IMG/VR virus record: IMGVR_UViG_3300023313_000004
Location: 1 to 64,000 of that record
DNA from: a virus
DNA: 64,000 nucleotides
Direction: 5' to 3' (one strand)
Shown: positions 3,589-46,913 of the stretch, in pieces
How positions within the stretch are numbered: the first letter of the stretch is position 1
Layout of the letters: each line of letters starts with the position of its first letter
The notes under the pieces: model-generated
Told to the model about the DNA's origin: nothing
The model's database searches: none
What the model saw: the letters and a program-made list of their open reading frames with translations, nothing else
Position numbers and translations under genes: made by a program

Positions 3589-3611
3589 TTCATTGATTCG
3601 TGGGGCTAGGC
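3579..3611 (+). other. Collapsed attC relic
   Basis: A degenerate left box GACTAAT (3579-3585) plus TAATTTCAT is joined directly to TGATTCGTGG and a mutated core GCTAGGC (3605-3611). Compared with site 3, the whole central hairpin is gone. The mutated core turns the usual TAA into the TAG stop of the 3606-4376 gene. Confidence 0.55.
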
Positions 3612-25287: not shown

Positions 25288-25448
25288 ACTGCTTTTCTCT
25301 CCTGTGTATAGACCCTTGCGTTGGTCTGGTTATCAAAAACAGTGCGATACCCTGCTTCTATATCTATGCCTCTCTCTTGTAAGTAAGTAAGTAAGGCTAC
25401 TCGGTCTAGCCCTTCAGCCTTGTGCTCTGGTATTATAACAGTAATCAT
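25284..25448 (-). CDS. Small hypothetical protein
   Basis: This 54-residue ORF has an ATG at 25448 overlapping the TGA of the APS-kinase-like gene. It shows a beta-alpha-beta pattern (MITVIIPEHK...LLTYLQERGIDIEAGYRTVF) without catalytic motifs. Overlaps on both sides support it as a real gene. Confidence 0.6.
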   Translation of the reverse strand: MITVIIPEHKAEGLDRVALLTYLQERGIDIEAGYRTVFDNQTNARVYTQERKAV

Positions 25449-25825
25449 TCTTCCTCCGCTGGGGACTCAAAATCCTCATTTATGTAATCGTCACCAAATC
25501 TCTCTACTTGTCTGGCTCTTAAATTATCTGGGTCGTAGTCTGCCAATAAAAAAGTGGCGTGGGGTATTAACGCCTTAATAAAGTTACGCTGTGCCTTCTT
25601 AGGGGTTATAGCAGCAATGCACACACTTACCCCTTGTTCTGACAGTAGTGCTGCGACTCCTGCCAGTGTTCTTACATTAGTGTCTCTAGCTTCTGCACTT
25701 AATGACCAATTTTTAGACCTAACCCTTACGGCGTGGGAGTCTAACTTAACCCCTTGGAATTGATTAAGTATCTTTGTTTTTCCTGAGCATGGAGGGCCAT
25801 AAACCCAAACGACTTTGCCTTTCAT
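25445..25825 (-). CDS. APS-kinase-like P-loop protein
   Basis: This is a 126-residue protein with Walker A GPPCSGKT (10-17). The following LD..AVR, LSAEARDTNVRTLAGVAALL and V.IAAITPKKAQR segments line up with the LDGDNVR, DR.ENIRR..EVA and ISP...R blocks of adenylylsulfate kinase (CysC). The C-terminal part that closes over APS in CysC is reduced. It may make PAPS for the two sulfotransferases, or may be a polynucleotide or nucleoside kinase that only shares the fold. It overlaps the dNMP kinase gene. Confidence 0.65.
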   Translation of the reverse strand: MKGKVVWVYGPPCSGKTKILNQFQGVKLDSHAVRVRSKNWSLSAEARDTNVRTLAGVAALLSEQGVSVCIAAITPKKAQRNFIKALIPHATFLLADYDPDNLRARQVERFGDDYINEDFESPAEEE

Positions 25826-26400
25826 ACCAACACCTCTCTCTTTATACTATCTGCTATTACCTTAATTTTAGCTAGGTAATGTGTTAAGCCTTTACTATTT
25901 ATAACCCTTACTGTCTTATACTTGTCTGGGTACCCCTTCTCTGAGGCGTGTTCCTCCCCCCCTGTAGTAGTAAAGGGGTTATTGGGGCGAATGACATGGA
26001 TTATTATGCCTCCAGTAGCCCTTACCCACGCTGCCTCATCCTCAAACCTGCAATCACTAAGTACAACATACTTACTCCCAGCAGCCCCAGCAGCCTCTAT
26101 CGCCAGCTTTGCTCGTAATACCCAGAAATCACCCCCGAAAGTGCCCCTAATAGCTTCTGTCCCAAACTTCTGAAGCATATCCCTATGGGTTAGTCCCCAC
26201 TTAGGGCTCATAGCGGCTTTCCCTTCCTGTGTGTGGAAGGTACTAACGTCCACTCCAAATAAAATAGCTGCTGCCTTCTTTAGGGGGTCTGCAAAGGCTA
26301 TCTCTGTTGCATGTAGTGCTGTTACTAGCTCTGAAGCCATAGTGGACTTACCAGAGCCCATAGCACCAGATATAGCTATAATTTTAGGTTTAGTCTGCAT
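25822..26400 (-). CDS. Deoxynucleoside monophosphate kinase
   Basis: This 192-residue protein has Walker A GAMGSGKST (about 11-19), FADPLKKAAA, RDMLQKFGTEAIR...WV and a VLSDCRFEDEA motif, the usual order in T4 gp1-type phage dNMP kinases. It phosphorylates dNMPs from degraded host DNA. ATG 26400 follows GGAG and overlaps the DnaB-like gene's 3' end. Confidence 0.88.
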   Translation of the reverse strand: MQTKPKIIAISGAMGSGKSTMASELVTALHATEIAFADPLKKAAAILFGVDVSTFHTQEGKAAMSPKWGLTHRDMLQKFGTEAIRGTFGGDFWVLRAKLAIEAAGAAGSKYVVLSDCRFEDEAAWVRATGGIIIHVIRPNNPFTTTGGEEHASEKGYPDKYKTVRVINSKGLTHYLAKIKVIADSIKREVLV

Positions 26401-27643
26401 TCAAATCTCCAAAATCTTCTTCTTTCCACTCAGAAAAATCCATATTGCTGAAGTCCCAGTTTATCTTAAACGTGCCTTGTTCACCACTCCTTCCTTTTAG
26501 TACACTAACCTCTCTTGATTGGAGGGTTTCCACTGTGTCACTTTGTAACATCCCTAGGACAATACTGGACAGCTGCCCTATAGCATCTGACCCTGCGATA
26601 TGTTCTAGCCCAGTGCTATCCCCCGTAGAAGTTTTTACTTTTGTGGCTTCCCTGTTTAGTTGGTACGATAAACATGCAGGTATATCTAATTCCGTGGCTA
26701 GGTTCTTAAATAACTCGCAGTTTGCCTCTATCCTTGCAGGCTTAGATAAGTAGGTGTCCTTATGCCTAACTAAGTACGCCCCATCAATAAATAAAACGTC
26801 AGGTGTTAGCTGCTGGGATAGCATCCATATATCTTCAGCTGTTGAGCTGAGTGCCCCATCAATAACATAAAAGGGTACATTAGACTCTTTTACTTCCATC
26901 ATGGCATGAAAAAAGTCTTTATAGTCTTGGGTGATAAACCCTGCTTTCATTAAGTGCGTTAGGTTTTTGCGAGTGTACATGGCAGCTAGTCGTTGAAAAA
27001 TCACCAAGGGCTTCATCTCCATAGACACGAACACTACCGCCTTACCATGCTTCTTCCACGCATTTAGAGCGACAAACAACAGTAGGAATGTCTTTCCCAT
27101 AGCAGGGCGACCAACTATAGAGAGTACATCTCCTCCACCAATACCCCCTGTCATATCATCTAGGAACTCCCACCCAAAAGTTAGGGCATAGTCATCCCCC
27201 TCCATAATGGTCTGTTTGTATGTACCAAGTAGAGACTCTCTTGCCTCCCTAAAATCCATAATTTTACTACCATGGTTTACCCTTACTAACGCCATCACGT
27301 CTGCCATGAGAGAATCTAATGCCTTCTCTGGGTTCATATCCCTGAGGGATGTGCTAGCGGATACCACTGCCCTCTTTAGCATACCATGTAGGTGTTTCTT
27401 CTTAACCGCATCCTCGTAGTACTTTAGGGGTTCTGCAGGGGCACTAACTTGCAGCCCGAACTTATGCTCCACCGTCTCTACCGCAGGGATAGTGCCGTAT
27501 TTGGTGACGTGGGTGTGGATGTAATCGTACACCTCTGCCTCATTGGCACCCAAATAAGATGCATCAACATCAAGGTGTGCAAAGGGGGCTACCTTAGCCC
27601 CGATAAGGACACTGTGTATTAAACTCATTCCTGCACTACTCAA
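26390..27643 (-). CDS. DnaB-like replicative helicase
   Basis: This 417-residue protein has an N-terminal helical domain and a RecA-type motor with FGWEFLDDMTGGIGGGDVLSIVGRPAMGKTFL (Walker A 178-185), VVFVSMEM, a LFIDGAYLV Walker B and the HIAGSDAIGQ loop. It would unwind DNA at the fork with the separate primase. Initiation is at TTG 27643, because AGGAGG lies at ideal distance; ATG 27628 is the alternative. Confidence 0.92.
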   Translation of the reverse strand: MSSAGMSLIHSVLIGAKVAPFAHLDVDASYLGANEAEVYDYIHTHVTKYGTIPAVETVEHKFGLQVSAPAEPLKYYEDAVKKKHLHGMLKRAVVSASTSLRDMNPEKALDSLMADVMALVRVNHGSKIMDFREARESLLGTYKQTIMEGDDYALTFGWEFLDDMTGGIGGGDVLSIVGRPAMGKTFLLLFVALNAWKKHGKAVVFVSMEMKPLVIFQRLAAMYTRKNLTHLMKAGFITQDYKDFFHAMMEVKESNVPFYVIDGALSSTAEDIWMLSQQLTPDVLFIDGAYLVRHKDTYLSKPARIEANCELFKNLATELDIPACLSYQLNREATKVKTSTGDSTGLEHIAGSDAIGQLSSIVLGMLQSDTVETLQSREVSVLKGRSGEQGTFKINWDFSNMDFSEWKEEDFGDLNAD

Positions 27644-27657
27644 AATAACACCTCCTC

Positions 27658-28242
27658 TTAATCAATTATGTTCTTAAAATGGTTGGTAATATGGCTCTTA
27701 AAAGGTGCTCCGTAATCATCAGATAGTGCTCGCATATCCTCTACATATATCACGGTCTGCTGCCCTTTAGCATACCTACTGTACAGCATCCCTAAAATAA
27801 GGGACGTTTGCCAGTCTGGAACTCTCCCCCCAGAGGACTGCCTGTAAAAGAAGTTAGGTATAAGTAACACTGTGGCATCGACTGTGCCTCCCTTCTTATA
27901 CACCTCTATAACCTCTTGTATGGTGAATACCTGTGCTCGAACAAAGTTACGAAGGAAGCAGCCTGCTAAAGCAAACATCTTAACCCCTACATCTCCACAT
28001 GCACCAGAGTAAACCAATCCCCCGTTCTCGGAGAGGGGGAGCTTCCTTAGTGCCCGAACCCAGCACCTCTCCTCCTCACCACAAAAATCCGATAGCTTAG
28101 TGTACACCATCTGCTTAGGGATATGGGCATCAGTAACGATACTCTCCAACTCTCCTACCAGCCTAGCATGTTTAGTGGGGTCTAGTACCCCAGAGGAGTA
28201 GCACTCCTTATACCGCAAGACGTGGGCATCAATATCATCCAT
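27658..28242 (-). CDS. Probable helicase-loader-like protein
   Basis: This 194-residue protein starts at ATG 28242 with AAGGAG upstream, overlapping the initiator gene. Its C-terminal half has a Rossmann-like pattern (ATVLLIPNFF...SLILGMLYSRYAKGQQTVIYVED) like the ATPase half of DnaC-type loaders, but a clear Walker A is missing. Placement between initiator and helicase supports a loader role. Confidence 0.55.
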   Translation of the reverse strand: MDDIDAHVLRYKECYSSGVLDPTKHARLVGELESIVTDAHIPKQMVYTKLSDFCGEEERCWVRALRKLPLSENGGLVYSGACGDVGVKMFALAGCFLRNFVRAQVFTIQEVIEVYKKGGTVDATVLLIPNFFYRQSSGGRVPDWQTSLILGMLYSRYAKGQQTVIYVEDMRALSDDYGAPFKSHITNHFKNIID

Positions 28243-29293
28243 GTGTGTCTCCTTGTAATTCAAGTTCTATTGCTTCCATCTCTGCTAAAGTCACTTTCTT
28301 AGCCAAGTTACTGCTACTAATGCTAACGGAGGGGGAAGAAGGCTTAGGATTTAGGGTACCCAAGGACACTGAAGGGGTATAGAGGCTCTGCTTAAAGAAT
28401 TGGGGGATGTAGTCTACACTAACCAACATAAAACCTAACTGTGGCTGTTTAGGGGGGTTATGCCCTCCAGACTTAGACTTAACAAAGTAAGAGAACGAAT
28501 CCCAGTTTAGCAAAGCATACTGGTAAGCCTCTGAGTTCTCAGCCCCCAATTTGGAGATAAGGTGCTTAAATTGCCCAATACTCTTAGAAGTTAGGGGTAA
28601 AGGGGTCATATCGTACTCCTGCCTACAAGTTTCTAACCAGAATTTAGACACATTATTGTACGAAAAATCCCCTAGTAGGGAAGGTTTTGCCTTCTCTAGG
28701 GAAATATCTAAAATATCAGTAACAGTAACAGAAGCCTTTATATACTTAGGTTTCTTCCCTGATTTTAGGGTTGTCCCTAGAGGTTTGTCAGGGAAAGATT
28801 CATCTTTTCCTTGTATTCTCTTGGTAGTCTCTGTAGAAGTATAATGGTTGCATAGTGCCATTTTGGCATTATGCATAGTGCCATTTTGGCACTTTGGGAT
28901 AGTGCCATTTTGGCACTTTGGGAAATATTCCCCTTTCTCCTCTTTTTCCTGTTCTACAGCCCAGTCCTCTACAGCCTTATTTAGGGTGATTTTCTCTAGG
29001 CAATACCACTTTGTTCTATCCGTATTCATCCTATTGTATTTTGAGGTGCTTAGTATTACCCCTGCCTCCTCTAGCTCCTTCATATCCCTCTTAAGGGTTC
29101 TTTCTGAATAGAAGGGTAACTGCTCTATCCATGCAGGGTATGTATTCCACACCCACGAGATACCATCCCTGATATTCTTTTGGTATTTAGCCCAGTACTG
29201 TATTTGTTGTATGAGTATCGCTTTCTTTAGTCCAAATACCTTTATTAGGGTAGGTTGTACTACTAAAGGGGACTCCTCTATTAAGTATTTCAT
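28235..29293 (-). CDS. Replication initiation protein with winged-helix N terminus
   Basis: This 352-residue protein starts at ATG 29293 after GGGAGGGGG. Residues 1-110 form a winged helix typical of phage replication initiators (GLKKAILIQQIQYW...SERTLKRDMKELEEAGVI). A low-complexity linker (PKCQNGT repeats) is encoded by palindromic iterons. The C-terminal half resembles DnaD-like helical regions. It probably binds the origin inside its own gene and recruits the loader and DnaB, as lambda O does. Confidence 0.78.
   Translation of the reverse strand: MKYLIEESPLVVQPTLIKVFGLKKAILIQQIQYWAKYQKNIRDGISWVWNTYPAWIEQLPFYSERTLKRDMKELEEAGVILSTSKYNRMNTDRTKWYCLEKITLNKAVEDWAVEQEKEEKGEYFPKCQNGTIPKCQNGTMHNAKMALCNHYTSTETTKRIQGKDESFPDKPLGTTLKSGKKPKYIKASVTVTDILDISLEKAKPSLLGDFSYNNVSKFWLETCRQEYDMTPLPLTSKSIGQFKHLISKLGAENSEAYQYALLNWDSFSYFVKSKSGGHNPPKQPQLGFMLVSVDYIPQFFKQSLYTPSVSLGTLNPKPSSPSVSISSSNLAKKVTLAEMEAIELELQGDTHG
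28854..28917. repeat. Three palindromic iterons, possible replication origin
   Basis: AGTGCCATTTTGGCA occurs at 28854-28868, 28877-28891 and 28901-28915, a 23-24 bp period (about two helical turns). Each copy holds the GTGCCA...TGGCA(C/T) palindrome. They lie in the linker-coding part of the initiator gene, the same arrangement as the lambda origin in gene O. Confidence 0.75.
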
Positions 29294-29295
29294 GT

Positions 29296-29514
29296 TCACC
29301 CCCTCCCATAATAGGGTAGCCCTGCTATGAAACCCCCCAATGTCGCCTTAGTAGTACTAGGTATCTCTTTTTTCTTTTGTGGTCTTAGGGTTGCCCTGAG
29401 CCGTTGTACTGTTGTGGCACTACGACCTAGCTCTAGTCCTATCGCCTTATTGGACTCCCCTCTCGTGATACCCTCTGCCATAAGGGTTAGTTCCTCTTTA
29501 GTAACCCTACCCAT
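29296..29514 (-). CDS. Small helix-turn-helix protein
   Basis: This 72-residue protein has a GESNKAIGLELGRSATTVQRLRATL helix-turn-helix (about 18-42) and a basic tail. It resembles small transcription or replication regulators. It overlaps the 29507-29962 gene and ends 3 nt before the initiator start. Confidence 0.7.
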   Translation of the reverse strand: MGRVTKEELTLMAEGITRGESNKAIGLELGRSATTVQRLRATLRPQKKKEIPSTTKATLGGFIAGLPYYGRG

Positions 29515-29962
29515 TAGTAGTATCTCCCTGTAAGCTACCCAACACCCCTAGCCTTTCTTTACTAGAAGTGCCCCACAAGTAGTCCTCAGCAACCCCCAGT
29601 ACCATCTCTTTGAGTTCCTCTGTCTTCCTCTTCACCTCTTGCAGCCCAAGGATTGAGTCTAGTTCAAATAATAGTTGGTCTACAATACTGGAGGCACTCT
29701 TTATAGCACTTCCAAACTCTACTCTCTCTGATAATAGTATTGCGGACACCTCCATACTTAAATAACCTACCCCCATGTAGTCATAAAGGATTGGTAATGT
29801 TTTTCTCGCGTAGTCCTTATCTACTTCCCCTCCTACTCCTGCTACAGTAAGAACAAAAACTATACGCAATAACTTACTGTCCTTAGGGTATGCAGATACT
29901 CTTGCTGATACCTGCATCTTACTATCAACATACACCAATACTTCCTCTGCCGTCTTGCTCAT
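29507..29962 (-). CDS. Hypothetical helical protein
   Basis: ATG 29962 has GGGAG upstream; a longer form from ATG 30019 is possible. The product (151 residues) is helical with a long amphipathic segment (LLFELDSILGLQEVKRKTEELKEMVLG). No domain is recognised. It is in the initiator operon. Confidence 0.6.
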   Translation of the reverse strand: MSKTAEEVLVYVDSKMQVSARVSAYPKDSKLLRIVFVLTVAGVGGEVDKDYARKTLPILYDYMGVGYLSMEVSAILLSERVEFGSAIKSASSIVDQLLFELDSILGLQEVKRKTEELKEMVLGVAEDYLWGTSSKERLGVLGSLQGDTTNG

Positions 29963-30034
29963 ACTTAACTCTCCCTTTGTTCCCATACACCCCTTTAAAC
30001 TGCCCGTTACTTCATACATACGAATACCCCTCTC

Positions 30035-30124
30035 TCATAGCATCCAATCTAGGGCATAAATATATAACCCTAAGGCTAGGTATCCTGCCGCTGCGTTGCG
30101 TATGTTGTACCAATGTAGTTCCAT
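30035..30124 (-). CDS. 29-residue membrane peptide
   Basis: ATG 30124 follows AGGAGAG. The peptide is mostly hydrophobic and aromatic (AAAGYLALGLYIYALDW), able to span a membrane once. It is the first ORF after promoter P7, so it heads the initiator-helicase operon. Confidence 0.5.
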   Translation of the reverse strand: MELHWYNIRNAAAGYLALGLYIYALDWML

Positions 30125-30157
30125 ATATCTCTCCTATCTATTTATGCACTTAAGGGC

Positions 30158-30186
30158 ACAGTACCCTCTTTTCTTTCACTTGTCAA
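30158..30186 (-). promoter_or_regulatory. Promoter P7
   Basis: TTGACA (30181-30186) and TACTGT (30158-30163) are 17 bp apart, with the shared TTGACAAGTG block. The -35 overlaps the last codons of the AAA+ gene, which end in GTT GAC AAG TGA. It drives the replication operon. Confidence 0.75.
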
Positions 30187-31330
30187 CTAGCAACTCTCTT
30201 TTTACACAGACCAAACAATGCTGCACTACTTCTGCAGGGGTGTACCACCCTTTGTGTTCTTCTGGGGGGAATATAGGGGCAACAGGCGTGTCTAAGCACA
30301 AGGAGGTGATGTACTCCTCCGCAAAGAGTATAGCCTCTGCACGGGGCATCCCTGCAAAGGTGATAATCGTGTCTACTCGTCCTGCCCTGTATAGCTCTAG
30401 GGGCAAGGCCTTTACGTCATTAGTTGTCATAATCGTCAGGACTCTAGTGGTGTGTTCTTGTAGCCACCATAGGATATGGGATAGGAGTCTATATTGAACC
30501 CCATCATCGTCCTTGTTATTAAATATCTTTTCTACTTCGTCAATGAGCATTATGCAGGGAGCTTCGTTATCTACTTGGTTAAGTGCTTTTGTTAAGTTAC
30601 CCTCACTCTCCCCTACATATTTGCCCATAAGACCCCCTATATCCAATCTGTATAGGGGTATATTTAGCTCGTTCGCTAAGTGCTTAGCACCTAGAGTTTT
30701 ACCTGTCCCTGCATCCCCACCAAATAAAAGTCCTCTAGGGGTAAGGGCGGCATGGGGGCTATCTAAAAAGAAAGGTGCTTCTTCCATAACCCATTTCTGT
30801 ACAGTCACCTGAGGCGCATAGAAGGGGGTGGTAGTATCTACTTGGGTAAGTCCTCTTGTAGTTGGGGTATAGAGCCTTCTAGTCTTAGCCACCCCTGTAG
30901 CAGTAAGGCTACCATCCCTAGACATAGTAAGCCTAGCCACTTCCCCCACATCCTTTAAAGTTAATCCACCCATAAAAGGAAGGATACCATTGACGGAGGA
31001 GTCGTCTGGCAATACTGAGCGCAGGAGCTGACCTACCATAGTCTTGGGGGTAGGGATAACCCCTGCATCATAGGCAGAGATATTATGCCCCTCTGGGTTT
31101 ATAATTATTAGAACACACTCTTTTTCTACCAGCAAACTATACAGTCTTTCTGGTGAGGGTTTACTCATATACCCAATGCAGTACGTAAACTCATGGGCTG
31201 TGGGGCTGGAGGGGGTGAACGGAACAAAATCTTTTCCTGTTACATGAGATAACACCTCAACCACATTAACTAGGTCTGTGGTGCTAACTTCTATAAGAGG
31301 GATACCTGATTCTACAACTAACTTAAGCAT
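30176..31330 (-). CDS. AAA+ ATPase (FtsH/CDC48-type)
   Basis: The start at ATG 31330 follows AAGGAG; an upstream extension would run through the promoter. The 384-residue protein has a less conserved N-terminal half and a C-terminal AAA+ module: LLFGGDAGTGKT Walker A (about 202-212), a YVGESEGN loop, IMLIDEVEKIF Walker B and a MTTNDVKALPLELYRAGRVD sensor and arginine-finger block. No protease domain follows. It probably remodels proteins or complexes during replication. Confidence 0.85.
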   Translation of the reverse strand: MLKLVVESGIPLIEVSTTDLVNVVEVLSHVTGKDFVPFTPSSPTAHEFTYCIGYMSKPSPERLYSLLVEKECVLIIINPEGHNISAYDAGVIPTPKTMVGQLLRSVLPDDSSVNGILPFMGGLTLKDVGEVARLTMSRDGSLTATGVAKTRRLYTPTTRGLTQVDTTTPFYAPQVTVQKWVMEEAPFFLDSPHAALTPRGLLFGGDAGTGKTLGAKHLANELNIPLYRLDIGGLMGKYVGESEGNLTKALNQVDNEAPCIMLIDEVEKIFNNKDDDGVQYRLLSHILWWLQEHTTRVLTIMTTNDVKALPLELYRAGRVDTIITFAGMPRAEAILFAEEYITSLCLDTPVAPIFPPEEHKGWYTPAEVVQHCLVCVKRELLVDK

Positions 31331-31361
31331 ATACTGACTCCTTGTATTGACACTGGGAATC

Positions 31362-31390
31362 AGTCTACACCTCTTTATTTCATTTGTCAA
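31362..31390 (-). promoter_or_regulatory. Promoter P8
   Basis: TTGACA (31385-31390) and TAGACT (31362-31367) are 17 bp apart, with the variant block TTGACAAATG. It drives the AAA+ ATPase gene. Confidence 0.72.
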
Positions 31391-31398
31391 CGGAGGGG

Positions 31399-31839
31399 CT
31401 ACTTTATAAGTAGGAGTATCCCTAGTAGCACCTCTAAGGCTGTATGCTTAATGTCATTTATCTCTGCCCATTTACGCTCCTCTGCTAGGGCATCTCGCAG
31501 CCTCTCCGCAGCTCTCAAAGTAGCTCTATCCGCCACTTCTATATTTTTCATCGCGTCCCTTAACAGGCGTAGCTGTCTAGCCTTATCGGATAATGCCTTA
31601 TCTAGGGCAGTAACGGTAAGCCTATCTAACTTGTGCTGCTCGTGCCGTAGGGACACGGATGAAGGGGTTAGGTCAGGCATACTAACTAGGGGGGCTAACC
31701 TAGTTTCAGTGTATGGGGCTATAGCAATAGCATCTGCCAGATAGGGTTGTGCATCTATAGCCTCTAACCTATCTATCAAAGTATTGTTAGCACAGCCGCC
31801 CAATAAGAGCAGCACCACGACCAACCACCTATTATTCAT
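31399..31839 (-). CDS. Spanin-like lipoprotein
   Basis: This 146-residue protein has a signal sequence and lipobox LLGGC (Cys16), followed by a helical periplasmic part and a hydrophobic C-terminal stretch (ALEVLLGILLLIK). Lipobox plus C-terminal membrane anchor is the layout of a unimolecular spanin that joins inner and outer membranes at lysis. Alternatively it is the o-spanin partner of the overlapping 31832-32191 gene. Either role implies a Gram-negative host. Confidence 0.65.
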   Translation of the reverse strand: MNNRWLVVVLLLLGGCANNTLIDRLEAIDAQPYLADAIAIAPYTETRLAPLVSMPDLTPSSVSLRHEQHKLDRLTVTALDKALSDKARQLRLLRDAMKNIEVADRATLRAAERLRDALAEERKWAEINDIKHTALEVLLGILLLIK

Positions 31840-32191
31840 TATTTAAGTACGCCAGTAGTTCTTTGGTGGTTCTCTTAGGGTACTTTCGTAAATGTACTCG
31901 TGCTGCCCTTTGTTGTAGGGCCACCGCCTCTTTTTTATGTTCTTCTGATAACGTACCTGCAGTTACGGATTCCCGTACACTGGTCTGTGCCGCAGCCATC
32001 GCTGTAGCTCGTAGTATATCTTCTTCCATATCTATCGCAGCAGCCCTAGAGGCAAAGCTTTCTTTAGCCGCAGAGAACTTAGCCCTACCTAGGAGTGCAA
32101 AAAGCAATACTACTACTGCTCCTGCCAGTAACCCTGTGTGCGCTTTAATAAAGGCCCACCCTTCTAATAACATATAATTGACTTTATTCAT
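31832..32191 (-). CDS. Single-span membrane protein, possible i-spanin
   Basis: This 119-residue protein has a membrane segment (LLAGAVVVLLFALLG, about 20-35) followed by an Ala-rich helical periplasmic or cytoplasmic part and a basic end. Its 3' end overlaps the lipoprotein gene, like Rz/Rz1 pairs. Function is inferred from position only. Confidence 0.55.
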   Translation of the reverse strand: MNKVNYMLLEGWAFIKAHTGLLAGAVVVLLFALLGRAKFSAAKESFASRAAAIDMEEDILRATAMAAAQTSVRESVTAGTLSEEHKKEAVALQQRAARVHLRKYPKRTTKELLAYLNNE

Positions 32192-32498
32192 TTAGTATCT
32201 CCTCCTTCCTTTTCTCATGTATTACTATTTCATCAGTAATATCATCTAAATCATCTCGGAGGGAGTTTTGCTCCTCCCTATCCTCGGCTCTACGCAAGGC
32301 TCTTTTAATTTCTCGTTTTTCTTTATTATAGGAGTTTATCTCCATCTGGATTATGGAGGCTTTTACTTGCCTCATATCCGCAGCCTCTGCAAAAGTTGCT
32401 TGCATCCAGAAAACAGAACCTACTAACGCACTAGCCACCCCTACTACACCCATAATAACCCCCATGTACACTCTTAGTTTCTCCGCGAAAGAAGGCAC
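32184..32498 (-). CDS. Membrane protein with coiled coil
   Basis: This is a 104-residue protein with a hydrophobic segment (VIMGVVGVASALVGSVFW, about 14-31) and a long charged helix (KREIKRALRRAEDREEQNSLRDDL). Its place in the lysis cassette suggests a holin accessory or antiholin, but I cannot prove it. Confidence 0.6.
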   Translation of the reverse strand: MPSFAEKLRVYMGVIMGVVGVASALVGSVFWMQATFAEAADMRQVKASIIQMEINSYNKEKREIKRALRRAEDREEQNSLRDDLDDITDEIVIHEKRKEEILNE

Positions 32499-32749: not shown

Positions 32750-32777
32750 AGTTACTCTCCTATAGGGGGTTATTTAT

Positions 32778-33852: not shown

Positions 33853-33854
33853 AA

Positions 33855-39189: not shown

Positions 39190-39201
39190 AGTTATAACCC
39201 C

Positions 39202-39552
39202 TTACTTAAATGAGAATCTAGCATCAAACATAGTAACCACTTGTAGCTCATCCAGCTTCCAAGTGTGTAGGGCACTAGAAACGCCTGCAGTAGGCTTCCC
39301 ATTAGTGCATTTATCTATCTCTTTGAACACTACAGAGAACACGTCATACCTGTCTAATTTACCATTAGGTGTGCCAAGAGCATAATGCTTCGCTGCAAAG
39401 ACAAAAGCCTCTAGCTGCATCTTGGTTACAGTCCTTGACCTAGCATTTTCTAAGGTACTACCTTTAACGTACACAATAAGCTCATCGAACAATTCTTCTA
39501 AAGGGTAGGCACTACGAACCTCGCCCCTGCTTCTAAATCTAGTGATTGCCAT
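39202..39552 (-). CDS. Hypothetical protein next to sulfotransferase
   Basis: This 116-residue protein, mixed helix and strand, starts RFRSRGEVRSAYPLEELFDEL. No domain is recognised. The sulfotransferase gene overlaps its start. Confidence 0.6.
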   Translation of the reverse strand: MAITRFRSRGEVRSAYPLEELFDELIVYVKGSTLENARSRTVTKMQLEAFVFAAKHYALGTPNGKLDRYDVFSVVFKEIDKCTNGKPTAGVSSALHTWKLDELQVVTMFDARFSFK

Positions 39553-41056
39553 GTAAGACCTCTAATAACTCTGAAAGATATTTCTTATAGGGTGTCGCCC
39601 TGTTCACGCTAGAACTATACAAAGGCTTAACTACTTGGGCTAAGGACGCTGTACGCACGTTCCTTTTTAGGTTATAAAAGGATGTGCATCCCTCCTCAAA
39701 AGGTACCCCTATATAATTAAGAATGCCTTGGGTGGTCTCCCTCTGGTTAGTGACCATATCCTCATAGTTAACTTGATGTATCGTTCCTTTGGGAAGGATA
39801 CTGCCCCATAAGTCCATTAGCCATAGGTGGTGATTGTACTCCTTGCCTAACTCTGTTTGGTCAAAGGAATAATCATGCCTATGTGCAAAGAGGGTAGTAA
39901 GGCAAGAGAAACAGTTATCTACTGCATCTCTTTTACAATAAATAAATTTGGCAGTTGGGAACATTGCGTAGATAAGAGGGATAAACTTGTAGTTTGCAGG
40001 CATTTTATCCACCGCAAATTTAGTGTCAAAATGCCTCACCCTATCGGATAAGTATGTCTCTGCTAGGTCTTCTGGGCAGGAAGGAACATCACTACTATGC
40101 TGCGCCCAGAGCTTACTAAAATCATGGGCGGACTCTGATACAGACATTAGTTCCCCAAGGGCAGTAATATCACTATGGCTACCTAGTATCTGCTCTACCA
40201 AAGTAGTACCACTTCTTGGCATACCAAAAACAAATACTAAGGGGGATTCACCCTCTGTAGGAGGCATCTCTTTAAAGAAGTCCTTAGTGAATACCTCTTT
40301 ATACTTCGTAGCTATATCTTTATAGTTAGGATAATTAACCCTACTCTTCTTCACAGTGTCATTGGCGGTGTTGTACGCCCCCCAAGAACCCTCTACATCC
40401 CCTCTTTGCTCCAAGAGCCTACCTAGCCCATTATATAACATAGGTAATTTATCTTTAGGGGTGGAAAGCCTTGATAAGACCTCTCGTACTTTCGTCTCTG
40501 TGCATACAGAGGAAGCGGCATGGTCAAATAGAGGGAGTGCGTGGCAGTACGCTAGCCAAGAATCAGGCCTAGCAGAGATAATATCTTCAAGGTAAGAACA
40601 AGAGACTTTTATCTCAGAGCACTCAACTAATAACTCCGCCACCACCAATTTTAGTTCAAGGTTCTCTCCGCAGTTTATACCCCTCAATACTTCAGATGCT
40701 TTAATAGACTCAAATTCAGAGATAAGGGCTTTAGCATATCCTAGTCCTATACTAGCATCAAAGGGGTTAAGGGTGTATGCCCTCCCCATTAGAGAGGTAT
40801 CCCCCATTAGGCTGCCTACGATAATAAGGACACTAGGGTCATCACTATAAAGGCGTAGTAGTGTAGCAGCCACTTTTTTAGCTTCATCTATATGCCCCTG
40901 AGCGTGGGCAATTTGTGCCATACCTATCAAAGCATCCTTATTGTCTGGGTCTTGGGATAATACGATATTAAACCCCTGCTCCGCAGCGAGGGGGTTTCCT
41001 TGGTCTAAATACATGGTCGCGCTATTTAGGTGCTCTATAAGCTGCCCTTTTTTCAT
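39539..41056 (-). CDS. TPR-sulfotransferase fusion
   Basis: This is a 505-residue protein. Residues 1-240 are tetratricopeptide-like helices (AEQGFNIVLSQDPDN, AQIAHAQGHIDEA). Residues 270-500 are a sulfotransferase domain with the PAPS 5'-phosphosulfate loop VFGMPRSGTTLVEQI (276-290), a DKMPANYKFI catalytic-region motif and the 3'-phosphate motif FIYCKRDAVDNCFS. TPR-sulfotransferases in bacteria and tyrosylprotein sulfotransferases have this layout. It may sulfate a virion protein or a host surface molecule. It is embedded among virion genes. Confidence 0.9.
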   Translation of the reverse strand: MKKGQLIEHLNSATMYLDQGNPLAAEQGFNIVLSQDPDNKDALIGMAQIAHAQGHIDEAKKVAATLLRLYSDDPSVLIIVGSLMGDTSLMGRAYTLNPFDASIGLGYAKALISEFESIKASEVLRGINCGENLELKLVVAELLVECSEIKVSCSYLEDIISARPDSWLAYCHALPLFDHAASSVCTETKVREVLSRLSTPKDKLPMLYNGLGRLLEQRGDVEGSWGAYNTANDTVKKSRVNYPNYKDIATKYKEVFTKDFFKEMPPTEGESPLVFVFGMPRSGTTLVEQILGSHSDITALGELMSVSESAHDFSKLWAQHSSDVPSCPEDLAETYLSDRVRHFDTKFAVDKMPANYKFIPLIYAMFPTAKFIYCKRDAVDNCFSCLTTLFAHRHDYSFDQTELGKEYNHHLWLMDLWGSILPKGTIHQVNYEDMVTNQRETTQGILNYIGVPFEEGCTSFYNLKRNVRTASLAQVVKPLYSSSVNRATPYKKYLSELLEVLHGNH

Positions 41057-41469
41057 AGAGTTACACTCATAGAGGAGATAGATACTTTATCAGAGGTAGT
41101 AATGACTGTCCCAGCAGCCCCGTCTGCCAGCTCCATATCCGCACCTGAGCCTACAGCCCCAACATCCCCATCCATAATGTGGGCGGCTAAGGAAGGCACA
41201 ATATTGTCGTACATTCTGAACCATGTAGCTGACCCATTAGCATCCCCTAGTAAATCGGAGGCGGTTGCGTTTAGGGTCGCTGTGCGTAAAACAGAAGCAT
41301 TAAATGGCGATGCACTTAATGGTATAGTTGCTAAGGTTATGCCTGTGGCGGCAGTGTCAGGTGTTAAAGGTCTAACCCCAGTGCGTAGCTCTAAGCAGCC
41401 ATTGGAGAAAGGTATTAGGAAGGAATCTATAGCTGTATTCGCCCCCAAAATTGAAATAGAATAAGCCAT
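41053..41469 (-). CDS. Virion protein, paralogue of 41529-41948
   Basis: This 138-residue beta-rich protein shares its overall layout with 41529-41948: a short-strand N terminus, a central A/T-rich region and a C-terminal GT.ITTSD.VSIS.M strand. This is probably a tandem duplication. A decoration or tail accessory role is likely, and no enzyme motif is present. Confidence 0.6.
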   Translation of the reverse strand: MAYSISILGANTAIDSFLIPFSNGCLELRTGVRPLTPDTAATGITLATIPLSASPFNASVLRTATLNATASDLLGDANGSATWFRMYDNIVPSLAAHIMDGDVGAVGSGADMELADGAAGTVITTSDKVSISSMSVTL

Positions 41470-41491
41470 TATTAGTCCTCTAAATGATTAA

Positions 41492-41520
41492 GAAAAAAGG
41501 AGGGCTGTGAAGCCCCCCCT
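41492..41520 (-). terminator. Rho-independent terminator
   Basis: On the minus strand a GGGGGGGCT-TCAC-AGCCCTCC stem (one mismatch) is followed by TTTTTTCTT. It lies after 41529-41948 and before 41053-41469. Confidence 0.75.
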
Positions 41521-41528
41521 AGTGGGTA

Positions 41529-41948
41529 TTATGCGTTACCAGCTGTGCGAGTCAAAGTGTTAATGTTTACCGTTTGAGTATTAGCTACAGATACGTTATC
41601 CATAGTCATATCACCACCACCGCCTGTAGCAGTTACCGTTCCTTGCTCATGGCATACTGTGCCTGCTGAGTCATAGATACGGTAGGCTAACACTGCTGTA
41701 CCTGCTGCGGCTGCTGCGATACCAGTAACGGTAAACGGTGCGCCCAAGATAGTTTTTGCACCTGCTGATGCAGTAGTAGACCAATCTGCAGGTAGTGTGC
41801 CTGTAGCGATAGAGACAGCTGTAGGTGCTGTACCGCAGTTTACAGGGTTTGCTCCGTCATATAAACGAACAATAGGAGAGGTACCAATAGTGGTCTCCCA
41901 TGCGTCTAGCTGAGCATTTCTTACGGATACTGAATATTGTAATGCCAT
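41529..41948 (-). CDS. Small virion protein (decoration-like)
   Basis: This 139-residue protein has LQYSVSVRNAQLDAWETTIGTSP near its start and a GTVTATGGGGDMTMDNV segment near its end. I recognise this pattern from widespread small phage structural proteins, although the exact role varies. It has its own AGGAGG site and is followed by a terminator, suggesting high expression. Confidence 0.7.
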   Translation of the reverse strand: MALQYSVSVRNAQLDAWETTIGTSPIVRLYDGANPVNCGTAPTAVSIATGTLPADWSTTASAGAKTILGAPFTVTGIAAAAAGTAVLAYRIYDSAGTVCHEQGTVTATGGGGDMTMDNVSVANTQTVNINTLTRTAGNA

Positions 41949-42002
41949 GGCGTATAGCCTCCTTACTTAAGTGCGACCAACCCTAGATGCCCCGAATAGT
42001 CT

Positions 42003-42410
42003 TTACAACTCTCTTACGATAGGAGGGTCGCCCTTCCTACGGTGGGGGTACAAGGCTAAACCTTCTTCCCCTAGCACAATAAACCTACGAATAGCTATGA
42101 TATATGCGTAGGCAAATAGCGTTAGAGACAGGGAGAGCAGTTCTTCTACAATAGCATAGGCCTTATCCTCAGGGGCTATTAGGGTATAATAAATATGCAG
42201 TGTTTGTAATACACAGACTAGGGATGCCGCGACTGCACCTGAGAACACTACAAGGATATTAGCATACATCTGTAGCCTTTCGTACACACTACGTTGGGGG
42301 TTGTTTGAGTATTGTTCCTTAGGTTGAGTATAAATATTAGCTAGCTTATATAGTAGGCAGATACACCCTATGTATGCGGCTAGGTTTATTATATCAATAT
42401 ATAGGTACAC
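42003..42410 (-). CDS. Polytopic membrane protein
   Basis: This 135-residue protein has three hydrophobic segments (about 5-25, 53-72 and 92-110). Its function is unknown. It could be a holin-like or superinfection-related protein, but no signature is seen. It overlaps nothing and lies 2 bp from 42413-42730. Confidence 0.65.
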   Translation of the reverse strand: MYLYIDIINLAAYIGCICLLYKLANIYTQPKEQYSNNPQRSVYERLQMYANILVVFSGAVAASLVCVLQTLHIYYTLIAPEDKAYAIVEELLSLSLTLFAYAYIIAIRRFIVLGEEGLALYPHRRKGDPPIVREL

Positions 42411-42412
42411 CC

Positions 42413-42730
42413 TTAGCTCTTCCCTACTGCGACTAGAGCCGCTGCTGCGAAGCCCAGAAATATTATAGCAGCAATACTTTTTCCTAATGAGGAGAAGAAC
42501 CCTTCCCCCATACTATCCATCCTATGCATCCAAGTCTGAAGAAACTTATGCTCCTCGTCATGGGTGGTGTGTAGCTCCGCCTTTATAACCTCTGCCACTC
42601 TTCTTAGCTCTGAGGCTTCGTGCTCTTGTATCATTACTTTTACAGCGGCAAGAGTCTCTTCCCTAGACCTAGAGTGTTCTTCCTTAATAAGTTGCATAAG
42701 TACCTGTAAGTCTGAGCCCTCAATAGCCAC
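42413..42730 (-). CDS. Coiled-coil protein with C-terminal membrane anchor
   Basis: In this 105-residue protein, residues 1-75 are a charged helix with heptads, and residues 85-103 (AAIIFLGFAAAALVAVG) form a membrane anchor. This tail-anchored layout occurs in phage lysis regulators and in membrane scaffolds. There is no direct evidence for either role. Confidence 0.65.
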   Translation of the reverse strand: MAIEGSDLQVLMQLIKEEHSRSREETLAAVKVMIQEHEASELRRVAEVIKAELHTTHDEEHKFLQTWMHRMDSMGEGFFSSLGKSIAAIIFLGFAAAALVAVGKS

Positions 42731-42734
42731 CCTA

Positions 42735-43052
42735 CTACACCTGTACTTGTACTACTACAGCACCTGTACCTGTTCTAACTGCCTGCACAAAGTTGTACTT
42801 AGCTGGGAGAACGTAAAGAGACCCTACGGTGGTCAAAGCAGCAACTGTATAAATATCTACCCATGGGGCGAGGGGGGTTAACTTAGCCTGTACCACTACG
42901 GATGTAGCTGCAGGGGTAGGGGATACTTGGACTATACTAGGGGCAGAGGCCACCAAAGATGTGTTAGCGTCTATACCTGTAATAGCTAGGGCTGTATCTA
43001 GTATCGTGTATGCAGGGCTCTCCTGCTTATCTTGCATAGTAATTAAAGGCAT
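42735..43052 (-). CDS. Hypothetical virion protein
   Basis: The start at ATG 43052 has GGAGAG upstream. This is a 105-residue beta-rich protein with Thr/Val/Ala repeats and no known motif. It lies between tail-tip genes and membrane-protein genes. Confidence 0.6.
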   Translation of the reverse strand: MPLITMQDKQESPAYTILDTALAITGIDANTSLVASAPSIVQVSPTPAATSVVVQAKLTPLAPWVDIYTVAALTTVGSLYVLPAKYNFVQAVRTGTGAVVVQVQV

Positions 43053-43100
43053 ATATCTCTCCAAAGTGTTGCGCTACGGTAGCCCCTCCTAGGGGGGCAA

Positions 43101-43325
43101 TCAAATATAGAATATGGGCAGGGTGCTAACCCCTTTTACTTGTCCTGTGATAATACCATTCCTCACCCTTACATCCACACCTACAGGGTGCGACCCCTCT
43201 AATTCCACCGTACCCTTGATGGTAGAAAGGAGGACTTTAGACCCCTGACTAGATAGGACGGTGCCAGTATAAGAATCCCCCGATGATAATAGGAGTCTTA
43301 AGGACGCTAGGCTGTTAGTAGGCAT
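43101..43325 (-). CDS. Small tail-tip protein
   Basis: The start at ATG 43325 overlaps the stop of 43315-43620. This 74-residue protein looks like a small beta barrel (GDSYTGTVLSSQGSKVLLSTIKGTVEL). No family is recognised. Confidence 0.55.
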   Translation of the reverse strand: MPTNSLASLRLLLSSGDSYTGTVLSSQGSKVLLSTIKGTVELEGSHPVGVDVRVRNGIITGQVKGVSTLPIFYI

Positions 43326-43620
43326 ATCTAAGGACTTGTAACTCTGTAACTGTATCTGTAGCACTGCTTAGGTGTCTTATGCGGATTATCTTGCCTCTCC
43401 ATGAAGACCCTGTGAGGGCATCAAAGGCTTCCAACAACATACCCCTAACAACCCCTGCGCTATAAATAACCGTCAAAGTTACGGTACTACCCGCCAAAGA
43501 ATTGGCATCTAGCTCACTAGCACCTCTAGCCAAGGCTACGGAGGTGGTAGAAAGAAGGGGGGACACTATGCCTTCACCAAAGGTACTTCCCCCCACCCTA
43601 GATACAACAATATCTATCAT
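43315..43620 (-). CDS. Tail-tip protein
   Basis: This is a 101-residue beta-rich protein in a run of overlapping genes downstream of the hub. It has a WRGKIIRIRHLSS strand pair. A distal-tail or hub partner role is inferred from position. Confidence 0.55.
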   Translation of the reverse strand: MIDIVVSRVGGSTFGEGIVSPLLSTTSVALARGASELDANSLAGSTVTLTVIYSAGVVRGMLLEAFDALTGSSWRGKIIRIRHLSSATDTVTELQVLRYAY

Positions 43621-44135
43621 ACAATAGGGTCTATAGAGGCGTTGCCAGTAATATATACTACTATGGAGAACACTGATTCTCCTCCCATAGTGGCAGGAGA
43701 TGCAATTTTAAATGCTTCAAAACCAGTAGTGTACACTACTTTTAATGCCCCTACTCCTGTCGTAGAAGCCACAAGTTGGTTCTCCTCTGTAACAGTTATG
43801 GAGCCTAGGCTTTTCCCTAGCCATGTGAAGCTACTAAGGGATTTTACAGGTTTGCTAGAGGTAGCAACATTAGAACCCGCATATGTGAGTATCTCTGTTA
43901 CCTCCATAGTCCCAGAACCCATACTAATAACAGAACCATAAGAGGCCTCCTGAGTTATCAGGTTTTGGGATACTGAAGCAGTGGTGTATAGTAGGTAATA
44001 TGCATCGTCTCCCGGAAAAAAAGAGGTCTTGCCTTTGTTATATCCGTCTGCCCTACCGTCTATTTCTGCAGAAAGTATGCCTGTGGCATCTAAGGTACCA
44101 AATTGGACTACTATGCTAGTGGTTACTTCACCCAT
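43617..44135 (-). CDS. Tail-tip protein
   Basis: This 172-residue, Ser/Thr-rich, beta-rich protein has its start overlapping the hub stop (TAATG). No motif is known. It is part of the hub gene cluster. Confidence 0.55.
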   Translation of the reverse strand: MGEVTTSIVVQFGTLDATGILSAEIDGRADGYNKGKTSFFPGDDAYYLLYTTASVSQNLITQEASYGSVISMGSGTMEVTEILTYAGSNVATSSKPVKSLSSFTWLGKSLGSITVTEENQLVASTTGVGALKVVYTTGFEAFKIASPATMGGESVFSIVVYITGNASIDPIV

Positions 44136-46057
44136 TACGTTGCCTCCACGACAAATTGTGCTTTACTTCCTACTACGCCAGAAACTCGATACTTTTGGTA
44201 CTTAGTGGCGTATGTTACCTCTGCTAAGGACTCTGAAGGTGTGCTGGACGTTAATGTGTTGCTTCCAGCGACAAAAGTAACGCCGCCTAACGGAACATTC
44301 AACCAAAGCACCTTGGATAGGGTATAGATAGGCTTGCTTAGGGAGGCACTACCCCTAACAAATTCCACCGTTTCTGTTAGTGTCTCAGAGACCCTACCCT
44401 TGTTTACCATAGTGGTGTTTGCACCAGAGGTGTGACGCACAGAGTAGTTACTTCTTAGTGGGCTCAAAAAGACTTTTAAGTCCCCTACTGAGGGGTCTAG
44501 CTGGTCAGCTTTATATTCTGCACTATCCCCGTATGATGCATCAGAATCAGCTATCCGTATCTTATCGAATTTTTTGGTGATATTAGCTGATTCTGAGGAA
44601 GAAAGGACATCCGTATAGTCACTATATACCCTATCTGGGACATGCTCTGCATATTGTTGTACAGGTATAGGGAATTTCTTTCTGGCATACAGCTTCCCAT
44701 CAGGGGCGCACTCCAGAACCCCCCCAGCGGCGGTCACTATATTTTTTACTATAGATAAAGGGGCTGCGCTAGAGGCACTCAATCTGTTAGGGGGGATAAT
44801 CCAATCCACAATACCCCAAGTAACAGTACCTACCCCCAGTAACTCATCTGCGACACTACTTGCTAATGTGGGGGTGCTCCATACTTTAGTCACAGCCTCG
44901 GCATAGTCACCTGTGTAGAGGATAGTGGGGCTAATACCTGTAACAGTAAACGTCCTCTCGGAGGGGGAGGACTGACCCCTAGATTTAGAGGGGGTAATCA
45001 TAGCGTACACTTCCCCCATTAAGTGCAGGGAAAAAGGCTCCCCTAGCACAAAAAGGGCTAAAGCCCCTTCTGAGACCAAGCCTAAAGTACAGTTCCATGC
45101 AGGGTTGCCCTCCTCCGCTACTACCTCCGCAGATAACAAGGGTATCTTTGCATTGCCTATCATAACGTAGGGGGGGATATTTGTTATAGTGGTAGTAGCC
45201 TCATCTCTTAAGCTCCATCTCCCAGAGATAGACGTAGAGACTTTGTTACCTGTACCAAGGGAGTAAGGTATATCGACTCCTGCCTCCACAGGAAAGGTGA
45301 AGTCACATAATGACTGAAGGCTAGAAGCGGCTACGCTCCGTAGGGTATAGGGCATACTAATATGCGAGCCAAGAGTAAGACTAAGAACATCATATCCTAT
45401 GGCCACATCAGACCCAACCACACTTGCATTACTATATTGAAAAGATACTGACCCCTGCGTAGTGCTCCGTAATGAGTAAAGGCTCTGGGTGTAGGCTGCT
45501 ACAGTCACAGAGTTCCCATACACCCCCGTATTAGAGGAGGCAACCTTACTTCTTAGGGTGTACACCCCTCCTGTAGAAGACAATACGGTAGCAGCGTTGG
45601 AGTAGGTAGATTTTGCTGTGGAGGACACTTTGCTCCTTAAAGTATAACTGCTCCCCACAGAGGCAGATACGGTAGTACTATCGGAGTATGTTGTTAGGGC
45701 GGAGGAGGCAACCTTACTTCTTAGGGTGTACTGGGCGGAGGCACTGGAGGCTACCGTAGCGGCATCACCATAGACCCCCGTAGTACTAGACCCTGTGATA
45801 CCAGTGTAGGTGGATGTTAGGCTACCCTCTACTGGGGTGTATAATAAAAGGTCATATACTCCCAGACCCCCACCACTATACACCTTAGAGGTGGATATAT
45901 AAGGCAAGGCTAAAGAGCTGCCCATAGGAGCACTCCAATTACCCTTAAGTGCAGAGGATACCAGCAGCCCATATTCCGAGGGGAGGGCACTACCTACCCT
46001 AACCACCATGGCTGACCCATTTATATACCCAGCATTTATTGCACTTATATTAGGCAT
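44135..46057 (-). CDS. Hub-like tail protein with N-terminal YTLRS repeats
   Basis: This is a 640-residue protein. Residues about 85-270 hold repeats alternating TY(S/G)..(T)V.(S/A)S and YTLRSKV.SS at roughly 20-residue spacing, a beta-rich stalk seen in some tail-tip proteins. From about 290 (YVMIGNAKIPLLSAEV, FTVTGISPTILY, IVKNIVTAAGGVLECAPDGKLYARK) it resembles phage hub and late-control-D-type proteins that form the tail tip ring. It is adjacent to the sulfotransferase gene. Confidence 0.7.
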   Translation of the reverse strand: MPNISAINAGYINGSAMVVRVGSALPSEYGLLVSSALKGNWSAPMGSSLALPYISTSKVYSGGGLGVYDLLLYTPVEGSLTSTYTGITGSSTTGVYGDAATVASSASAQYTLRSKVASSALTTYSDSTTVSASVGSSYTLRSKVSSTAKSTYSNAATVLSSTGGVYTLRSKVASSNTGVYGNSVTVAAYTQSLYSLRSTTQGSVSFQYSNASVVGSDVAIGYDVLSLTLGSHISMPYTLRSVAASSLQSLCDFTFPVEAGVDIPYSLGTGNKVSTSISGRWSLRDEATTTITNIPPYVMIGNAKIPLLSAEVVAEEGNPAWNCTLGLVSEGALALFVLGEPFSLHLMGEVYAMITPSKSRGQSSPSERTFTVTGISPTILYTGDYAEAVTKVWSTPTLASSVADELLGVGTVTWGIVDWIIPPNRLSASSAAPLSIVKNIVTAAGGVLECAPDGKLYARKKFPIPVQQYAEHVPDRVYSDYTDVLSSSESANITKKFDKIRIADSDASYGDSAEYKADQLDPSVGDLKVFLSPLRSNYSVRHTSGANTTMVNKGRVSETLTETVEFVRGSASLSKPIYTLSKVLWLNVPLGGVTFVAGSNTLTSSTPSESLAEVTYATKYQKYRVSGVVGSKAQFVVEAT

Positions 46058-46103
46058 AGAAACCCCTCATCAAAAAAGCCCACTTTACAGGGTCATAATA
46101 CTA

Positions 46104-46913
46104 TTATCTATCGGGGTAGAATAACTCATAGAACCATGAGCCTCTGGCTTTTATATCAGAGCTTATATGCTCCCCTAGTATATCGTCCCAGTCTGTGGGG
46201 GGCGCGGATACAGAACCCTGTACCTCATGCTCTCCGTAGGGGGCATGAATATGGTCATGCTCGAAGGTAGTCCCCACTACCCCCTCATAAGTGTGCCCCT
46301 CAAACCATGGCAGACCGCAGTAATCATACACTCTTTTTAGCTCTCGCTCTGGGTCAGCACCCAAGTCCTCCGCTCTTACCACTAGCATACTAGAAAGAAA
46401 CCCTCTCTGGTGTGCTTCCAATAACATTTCTAACGCATTACCTAGGGGGGAGTCAGAGAGATACCCCTCCACCCTATTTTGCAGGGTAATACCTTTGTTA
46501 TCCTTCCCTAGCGGTGTAAGAAGAGTAGGATTGCCTCTATGTAACTTTTCTAAACTGGCAACACACCCTCTAATATCCCTAATAGGAACTATCACTTTTG
46601 GTTGGGGGTACATTGCTAGCAGAAGGTCAAACTTCCCTAACCAACCCCTACTCTTATCAAAACATTCGCCTTTAGCTGTGTCTGCAAAGTAACCTCGTAC
46701 TACTCCTCTCATAGCACCTAGCATACTCCTATCTAAGGTGTCCTTATCTAGGGCTCTACAGGTAGAGGAGTTACTCCTTGTCCCCACCATACCAGTAAGT
46801 AGCTCCACAAGGGGGCTAGTAGGTGTGGTGTGGAACTCAGGGTTTTGTGCCAATAATGCAGTCAAGATAGTGGAGTTAGACCTAGGGAGTCCTCCTAGGA
46901 AGTGTACCGTCAT
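46104..46913 (-). CDS. Sulfotransferase
   Basis: This 269-residue protein begins with the PAPS-binding loop FLGGLPRSNSTILTALL (5-21), followed by PKVIVPIRDIRGCVASLEKL, which matches the strand and helix carrying the 3'-phosphate-binding Arg and Ser. Residues 190-205 include the RVYDYCGLPW segment typical of the family. It lies between the hub gene and a fibre-associated gene. Its substrate could be tail-protein tyrosines or host glycans. Confidence 0.85.
   Translation of the reverse strand: MTVHFLGGLPRSNSTILTALLAQNPEFHTTPTSPLVELLTGMVGTRSNSSTCRALDKDTLDRSMLGAMRGVVRGYFADTAKGECFDKSRGWLGKFDLLLAMYPQPKVIVPIRDIRGCVASLEKLHRGNPTLLTPLGKDNKGITLQNRVEGYLSDSPLGNALEMLLEAHQRGFLSSMLVVRAEDLGADPERELKRVYDYCGLPWFEGHTYEGVVGTTFEHDHIHAPYGEHEVQGSVSAPPTDWDDILGEHISSDIKARGSWFYELFYPDR

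Follow-up and report, generated by a model that had tools for sequence, protein, structure and literature searches.

Two putative PAPS-dependent sulfotransferases in the tail module of a phage genome, candidate modifiers of its own fiber and tail proteins

The tail module of the phage genome in IMG/VR record IMGVR_UViG_3300023313_000004 encodes two Sulfotransfer_3 family proteins, here called ST1 and ST2, both located between the tail/fiber genes and the lysis genes. We analyzed bases 1-64,000 of this 75,572-base record (the window; its genome is labeled G000). In our assessment, the chances are evenly balanced that ST1 and ST2 are cytosolic, late enzymes that use 3'-phosphoadenosine-5'-phosphosulfate (PAPS) to decorate the phage's own fiber and tail proteins, or glycans carried on them. 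An earlier note on this DNA had proposed a phage-encoded sulfation pathway composed of two sulfotransferases in the tail module, an adenosine 5'-phosphosulfate (APS) kinase-like protein and a PAPS-reductase-family protein. All four open reading frames (ORFs) were recovered on the - strand, and the two sulfotransferases were borne out by their family matches:

39539..41056, - strand: ST1, a TPR and Sulfotransfer_3 sulfotransferase of 505 aa (PF13469, 1.4e-38; TPR_19, 1.5e-10)
46104..46913, - strand: ST2, a stand-alone, predicted cytosolic Sulfotransfer_3 sulfotransferase of 269 aa (PF13469, 1.6e-17; phrog_27463, 2.6e-29)

Judged by sequence, both proteins look like working enzymes, with family matches far above chance. 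Against PF13469 (cut-off 27 bits), ST1 scored 133.8 bits over profile positions 1-216 of 216, and ST2 scored 64.9 bits over positions 3-215 of 216. The cofactor motifs are intact in ST1 (GMPRSGTTL for the 5'-phosphosulfate loop; CKRDAVDNCFS for the 3'-phosphate R...S) and in ST2 (GLPRSNSTI and IRDIRGCVAS, respectively), and PR..ST (P10, R11, S14 and T15), DK.R.W, R112 and S120 are invariant in seven phage homologues of ST2. Comparison of the ST1 copies from two relatives, G001 and G002, gave a dN of 0.008, a dS of 0.190 and a dN/dS of 0.040; ST1 is under strong purifying selection. No N-terminal hydrophobic segment was visible in the sequence of either protein, which, together with the late-gene organization, would place sulfation in the cytosol, where tails assemble.

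The two enzymes differ in what they may modify. The best solved relatives of ST1 are protein-tyrosine sulfotransferases (TPSTs; 8w5z, 5.8e-10), and ST1 carries the TPST-type catalytic-base Glu, its GEL aligning with the GEE of the TPSTs; via this residue, tyrosine is a plausible acceptor for ST1 only. The best solved relative of the ST2 family profile is likewise TPST1 (1.7e-14), while ST2 itself reads TPTSP at the place of the Glu and matches NoeE in NCBIfam (9.4e-7). NoeE is the Nod-factor sulfotransferase, a carbohydrate sulfotransferase, which ST2 appears to resemble. TPST1/2 are thus the closest solved structures for both proteins, and ST1 retains the 5'-PSB loop, Glu, Lys and RD...S; however, TPSTs are membrane-anchored and luminal, whereas ST1 and ST2 are predicted to be cytosolic, ST1 is fused to TPR and ST2 lacks the catalytic base. 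The cyanophage sulfotransferases of S-SKS1, S-SCSM1 and S-SRM01 (phrog_27463) share 26-31% identity with ST2 over nearly the full length, with the same invariant cofactor residues, but they occupy other genomic settings.

ST2 is embedded among genes of the virion surface:

47230..50430, - strand: fiber protein of 1066 aa with YadA-head-like repeats in its C-terminal part (YadA_head, 2.5e-5; repeat score 8)
46910..47230, - strand: 106-aa ORF between the fiber gene and ST2, overlapping ST2 by 4 nt (ORF call)
44135..46057, - strand: tail protein directly downstream of ST2 (phrog_24698, 4.9e-39; phrog_6079 tail protein, 1.9e-12)

G000 therefore has an ST2-family sulfotransferase near a fiber gene, the latter being the next-but-one gene upstream, and this fiber is a candidate substrate of ST2. 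In G002, the homologous fiber gene is directly followed by a homologous sulfotransferase (52% identity to ST2). The fiber-ST2 pair precedes the genes at 44135-43101 in G000 and follows them in G002, from which we conclude that the two genes moved together. The intervening 106-aa ORF gave zero Pfam or PHROG matches, and no similarity was detected between it and the ORF that follows ST2 in G002.

ST1 belongs to a cassette of virion genes shared with G001, G002 and a third relative, L111:

41529..41948, - strand: virion structural protein (phrog_3758, 5.9e-20), kept with ST1 in G001, G002 and L111
41053..41469, - strand: second phrog_3758 virion structural protein (9.1e-16), overlapping the ST1 start by 4 nt
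39202..39552, - strand: 116-aa protein whose gene overlaps the ST1 stop; the window copy is 66-69% identical to its counterparts in G001, G002 and L111
37846..39189, - strand: 447-aa virion-like protein (phrog_20658 head decoration, 4.9e-9), kept in G001, G002 and L111
37382..37846, - strand: 154-aa protein with homologues in G001 and G002; the L111 match spans merely 22 aa
34132..37389, - strand: protein of 1085 aa with Q-x-G-D repeats, last in the cassette (30% identity to G002; N-terminal part only in G001)

The order phrog_3758, phrog_3758-like, ST1, 116-aa protein and 447-aa protein is common to G000, G001, G002 and L111, with one additional ORF within the G002 cassette. ST1 overlaps its neighbors by 4 nt and 14 nt, and the 116-aa protein, for which no Pfam, PHROG or NCBIfam family match was found, is the next gene after ST1 in all four genomes. 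G001 and L111 have mainly one cassette in common with G000; outside it, no similarity between G001 and G000 was detectable, and the cassette lies after the lysis genes in L111 and before them in G000. ST1 and virion genes thus move as a unit among phages that are otherwise unrelated. Remoter phage homologues of ST1 (in L106 and L113) also adjoin tail or lysis genes, and a search for a bacterial source of ST1 returned a single distant match. The 447-aa protein, which contains a conserved KVYEYD, is a candidate, and only a candidate, for the ST1 substrate. As separate observations, the Q-x-G-D repeat protein is fast-changing (1085 aa in G000, 1370 aa in G002 and 285 aa in G001), and proteins of ~395 aa with no assigned family are encoded directly upstream of the short ST1 homologues of L106 and L113, with a 4-nt overlap (L106:5187-6383 and L113:2167-3351).

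The gene order around ST2 homologues in other phages provides further partners. The ST2 family occurs in at least 587 IMG/VR contigs, from which a set of 45 loci dereplicated at 80% identity was compared. A GT9/TibC-like glycosyltransferase (GT) of ~295 aa was found in 34 of the 45 loci; 25 have it immediately upstream of the ST2 homologue, separated by -11 to +6 nt. An APS kinase (APSK) gene lies within ~6 kb of ST2 in 22/45 loci, mostly directly downstream, usually at a distance of 1-2 genes, and an APS_kinase match above the cut-off was obtained in 25 of 42 sulfotransferase-bearing contigs. The sulfotransferase-APS kinase pairing, which the earlier note had proposed to look for in other phages, is therefore real in relatives. 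After APSK commonly come genes for an NMN (nicotinamide mononucleotide)-adenylyltransferase-like protein (NT, 17/45) and a DUF2061 membrane protein (21/45), and all four partners occur together in 15/45. A literature search on DUF2061 yielded nothing useful. NT was also considered as an ATP sulfurylase and rejected, its solved relatives being NMN adenylyltransferases.

Pfam, PHROGs and PDB sequence searches gave the GT a weak assignment or none (2 of 33 members match GT9); its identity instead relies on an AlphaFold model with a predicted local distance difference test (pLDDT) score of 90, for which Foldseek returned GT9 enzymes, WaaC/WaaF and TibC. TibC and Aah (BAHT) attach heptose to autotransporters, as for TibC/TibA (PMC3835316). 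The phage GT is alike in fold and is often located beside autotransporter-like repeat fibers, but it is shorter and only ~14% identical to TibC, and none was found in G000. Further upstream of ST2 homologues, the large genes encode beta-roll YadA/UspA1-like fibers, tail fiber/spike families and S74 chaperones, accompanied by 2-oxoglutarate (2OG)-Fe(II) oxygenases, GT8 and GT25. Repeat proteins made up 12/46 of the large ORFs upstream and 2/39 of those downstream of ST2 homologues, as compared to 0 in shuffled sequences. Since ST2 lacks the TPST Glu, matches NoeE and has a GT partner in relatives, a fiber sugar may be the likelier acceptor in those relatives; in G000, where there is no GT partner, direct sulfation of fiber residues or a host-made sugar must be assumed.

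The kinases next to ST2 are recognizable APS kinases. Their profile has APS kinases as its top PDB matches (8.9e-20), and the D-x-D-x-x-R, G-R-x-x-N and P....R motifs are kept in all 21 aligned phage sequences, as in CysC; unlike CysC, they are ~150 aa long with a reduced lid. We rejected the idea of APSK as an exclusive sulfotransferase partner, since only 6 of the 17 evaluable dereplicated APSK loci have an ST2-family gene nearby; several of the 11 others adjoin DNA methylases, so the kinase module must have other uses too. An NMNAT-like gene is present at all 17 evaluable APSK loci, and the pair may therefore have a function of its own, in NAD or PAPS metabolism; it recurs beside DNA methylases, without ST2, in L147, L150, L164, L166 and L193. 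Short sulfotransferase-like ORFs of a non-ST2 family, recognized by motif only (GHKTGSTTM or VPRCASTS), were seen near APSK in L166:3337-3945, L181:682-1290 and L199:7932-8657. A tryptophan-halogenase-like gene (L165:6534-7778) lies near an APSK-NT-DUF2061 module along with several glycosyltransferase-like genes.

Taken as a mechanism, ST1 and ST2 would be made together with the late tail genes and would place sulfate on fiber and tail proteins, or on their glycans, before the virion leaves the cell. ST2 would act on the nearby YadA-type fiber, and the target of ST1 would be a virion protein encoded in the ST1 cassette, with PAPS normally supplied by the host. In relatives that carry the TibC-like GT and APSK, glycosylation of the fiber would be followed by sulfation of the glycan, and the phage would top up PAPS. 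We infer the catalytic activity of ST1 and ST2, their acceptors and their effect; sulfated virions would be the outcome, and the altered surface could affect how virions adsorb, which hosts they infect or how exposed they are to other binders. A bolder version, in which APSK makes PAPS, the TibC-like GT glycosylates an autotransporter-like fiber and the sulfotransferase caps the sugar in a widespread phage pathway, with G000 as a reduced member that lives on host PAPS, would provide the first sulfated virions; we regard it as tentative, and as falling on the unlikely side.

Several observations weigh against sulfation of the phage's own tail. A position in the tail module does not prove a tail-protein substrate, since host glycans can equally be the targets of late enzymes. 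An obvious YadA-like repeat protein was found within four genes upstream in only 11 of 44 ST2 loci, and cyanophage sulfotransferase genes can sit apart from fibers, the S-SCSM1 gene lying among recombination and RNA-binding genes. Searches of G000 for the GT, NT and DUF2061 partners gave no match at E 1e-3, so that any glycan acceptor would need another source.

The source of PAPS in G000 was addressed through the kinase-like protein of the window:

25445..25825, - strand: diverged APS-kinase-family homologue of 126 aa without a lid, a doubtful part of the system (PF01583, 1.6e-10)

The APS-kinase likeness pointed out in the earlier note was seen again, while the role as PAPS source does not fare as well. 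The protein scored 41.7 bits against PF01583 (cut-off 21.1) and 40.3 bits against TIGR00455, the NCBIfam apsK model (cut-off 138.7); the Pfam match ends at position 102 of 152, and the lid and C-terminal part were not recovered. Of the G000 ORFs, it alone was picked up by the phage APSK profile (44.6 bits, E 2.8e-13), with an alignment that extends through the C-terminal RxR..EDFE-P stretch. By hand count on the alignment, 12 of 16 invariant positions are kept. Among these are the substrate positions RDTN (corresponding to GRxxN) and TPKKAQR (SPYxxxR); the aromatic F and Y positions are gone, and DGDxxR reads DSHAVR (LDSHAVR), with His for the second Asp, although D31 and D33 are invariant in the 21 phage relatives. 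The window copy is thus more degenerate than the kinases beside ST2. A single-sequence search found no phage relatives of the protein, and its AlphaFold model alone was unusable (pLDDT 45). The gene is located ~20 kb from the sulfotransferases in a replication/nucleotide module, adjoining a deoxynucleoside monophosphate (dNMP) kinase (DNMK family, PF21448, 5.7e-16) and near a dUTPase, and the sister phage G002 has no counterpart in the matching, syntenic interval. We consider 25445-25825 a homologue whose function is doubtful, and the host is the most likely source of PAPS, since the window kinase is diverged, short, next to a dNMP kinase and absent from the G002 interval. It is quite possible, if somewhat short of an even chance, that the protein acts on nucleotides or nucleic acid and has no connection with sulfation: its neighborhood suits such a role, but every one of its best family matches is an APS kinase.

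The main rival concerns the sulfotransferases themselves. Host surface glycans, such as the lipopolysaccharide (LPS) core, O-antigen or exopolysaccharide precursors, could be sulfated during infection, blocking superinfection or keeping virions from sticking to debris, and the place in the tail module would then be explained by late expression and by linkage to genes that determine host range. The likeness of ST2 to NoeE fits this proposal, as does the GT9/heptosyltransferase-like direct neighbor in relatives, heptosyltransferases being mostly builders of the LPS core; GT8, GT25, FkbM, epimerase and further GT genes are also found near ST2 in relatives. However, the top TM-scores of the GT model belong to the protein-modifying TibC, with WaaC/WaaF and 3tov close behind, ST1 is TPST-like in its Glu, and late cassettes that move with a fiber gene would be odd for host-glycan enzymes. 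We rate sulfation of host glycans as rather unlikely, and modification of the phage's own fiber and tail proteins remains our preferred reading.

Less probable again is that both are metabolic or moron genes, acting on small host molecules or carried as host-derived passengers, with an incidental position in the tail module. TPR-sulfotransferases are common in bacteria, which favors such an origin. Phage sulfotransferases are known as annotations whose role was called unclear (PMC10580990), and they are listed among auxiliary metabolic genes (PMC12285232). Conserved operon overlaps, co-mobility with fiber and virion genes and strong purifying selection argue against passengers, and we consider this explanation unlikely.

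Least likely of all, by a small step, is a complete phage-encoded pathway in which the window kinase makes PAPS for ST1 and ST2: many relatives have an APSK gene next to their ST2 homologue and the window protein matches the corresponding profile, but it has lost catalytic and APS-contact positions, it ends at 126 aa, its locus is distant and missing from the G002 interval, and phage APSK also occurs without a nearby sulfotransferase, often beside DNA methylases.

Virions of mycobacteriophages are glycosylated on capsid or tail proteins by a phage-encoded transferase, according to the work of Freeman et al. 2023 as cited in PMC12619734. That system attaches sugar using other enzymes, whereas sulfate is proposed here; both would be phage-encoded covalent decoration. 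A full-text literature search, which scarcely covered subscription journals and preprints, brought up neither a sulfated phage virion nor a description of the fiber-GT-ST-APSK block. The gene order names concrete partners for phage sulfotransferases (a fiber, a glycosyltransferase and an APS kinase), making the question testable by mass spectrometry. Sulfation of fibers would, if it occurs, give phages an additional covalent means, next to glycosylation and protein sequence, of adjusting adsorption and evading binders.

The fourth protein of the pathway proposed in the earlier note dropped out:

3606..4376, - strand: PP-loop protein assigned to the 'PAPS reductase family', next to two C5-DNA methylases (phrog_424, 1.7e-50)

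Its match to PF01507 is weak (6.3e-6, 26.8 bits, cut-off 22.5) and restricted to the N-terminal 96 aa, and its best solved relative is PptA (21fy_C, 2.4e-18), with PAPS reductases absent from the solved-structure matches. CysH is characterized by a catalytic C-terminal ECGLH-type Cys motif; this was not found in the protein, which ends in ...IGGCGCFLEA without ECGxH, and no CysH model of NCBIfam was matched. A PAPS reductase was rejected as a pathway component, as these tests failed and a true enzyme would consume the PAPS donor; 3606-4376 is probably unrelated to sulfation. The neighboring C5-cytosine DNA methylases are encoded at 1579-2583 and 2776-3555, the second matching only the N-terminal half of the Pfam profile.

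Almost all genes of the window lie on the - strand, and two further tail genes are recognizable:

59587-60363: major tail protein with an Ig domain
54667-58860: tape measure protein

The sole sheath-like match in G000 was at noise level, and we take the tail of this phage to be long and non-contractile. The nearest relatives found are G002 (60.8 kb), which is collinear with G000 over most of its own length, and the cassette-sharing G001 and L111; a nucleotide search of INPHARED with the tail module gave zero matches. Finally, intein-like insertions (VHN-S/C type ends within the protein) are apparent at 10973-13225 and 20127-21908 of the window, and likewise at 68176-69279 and 69279-71831 of the whole record. 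The genes concerned encode the large terminase, a helicase and the DNA polymerase, the last of which looks split or doubly interrupted.

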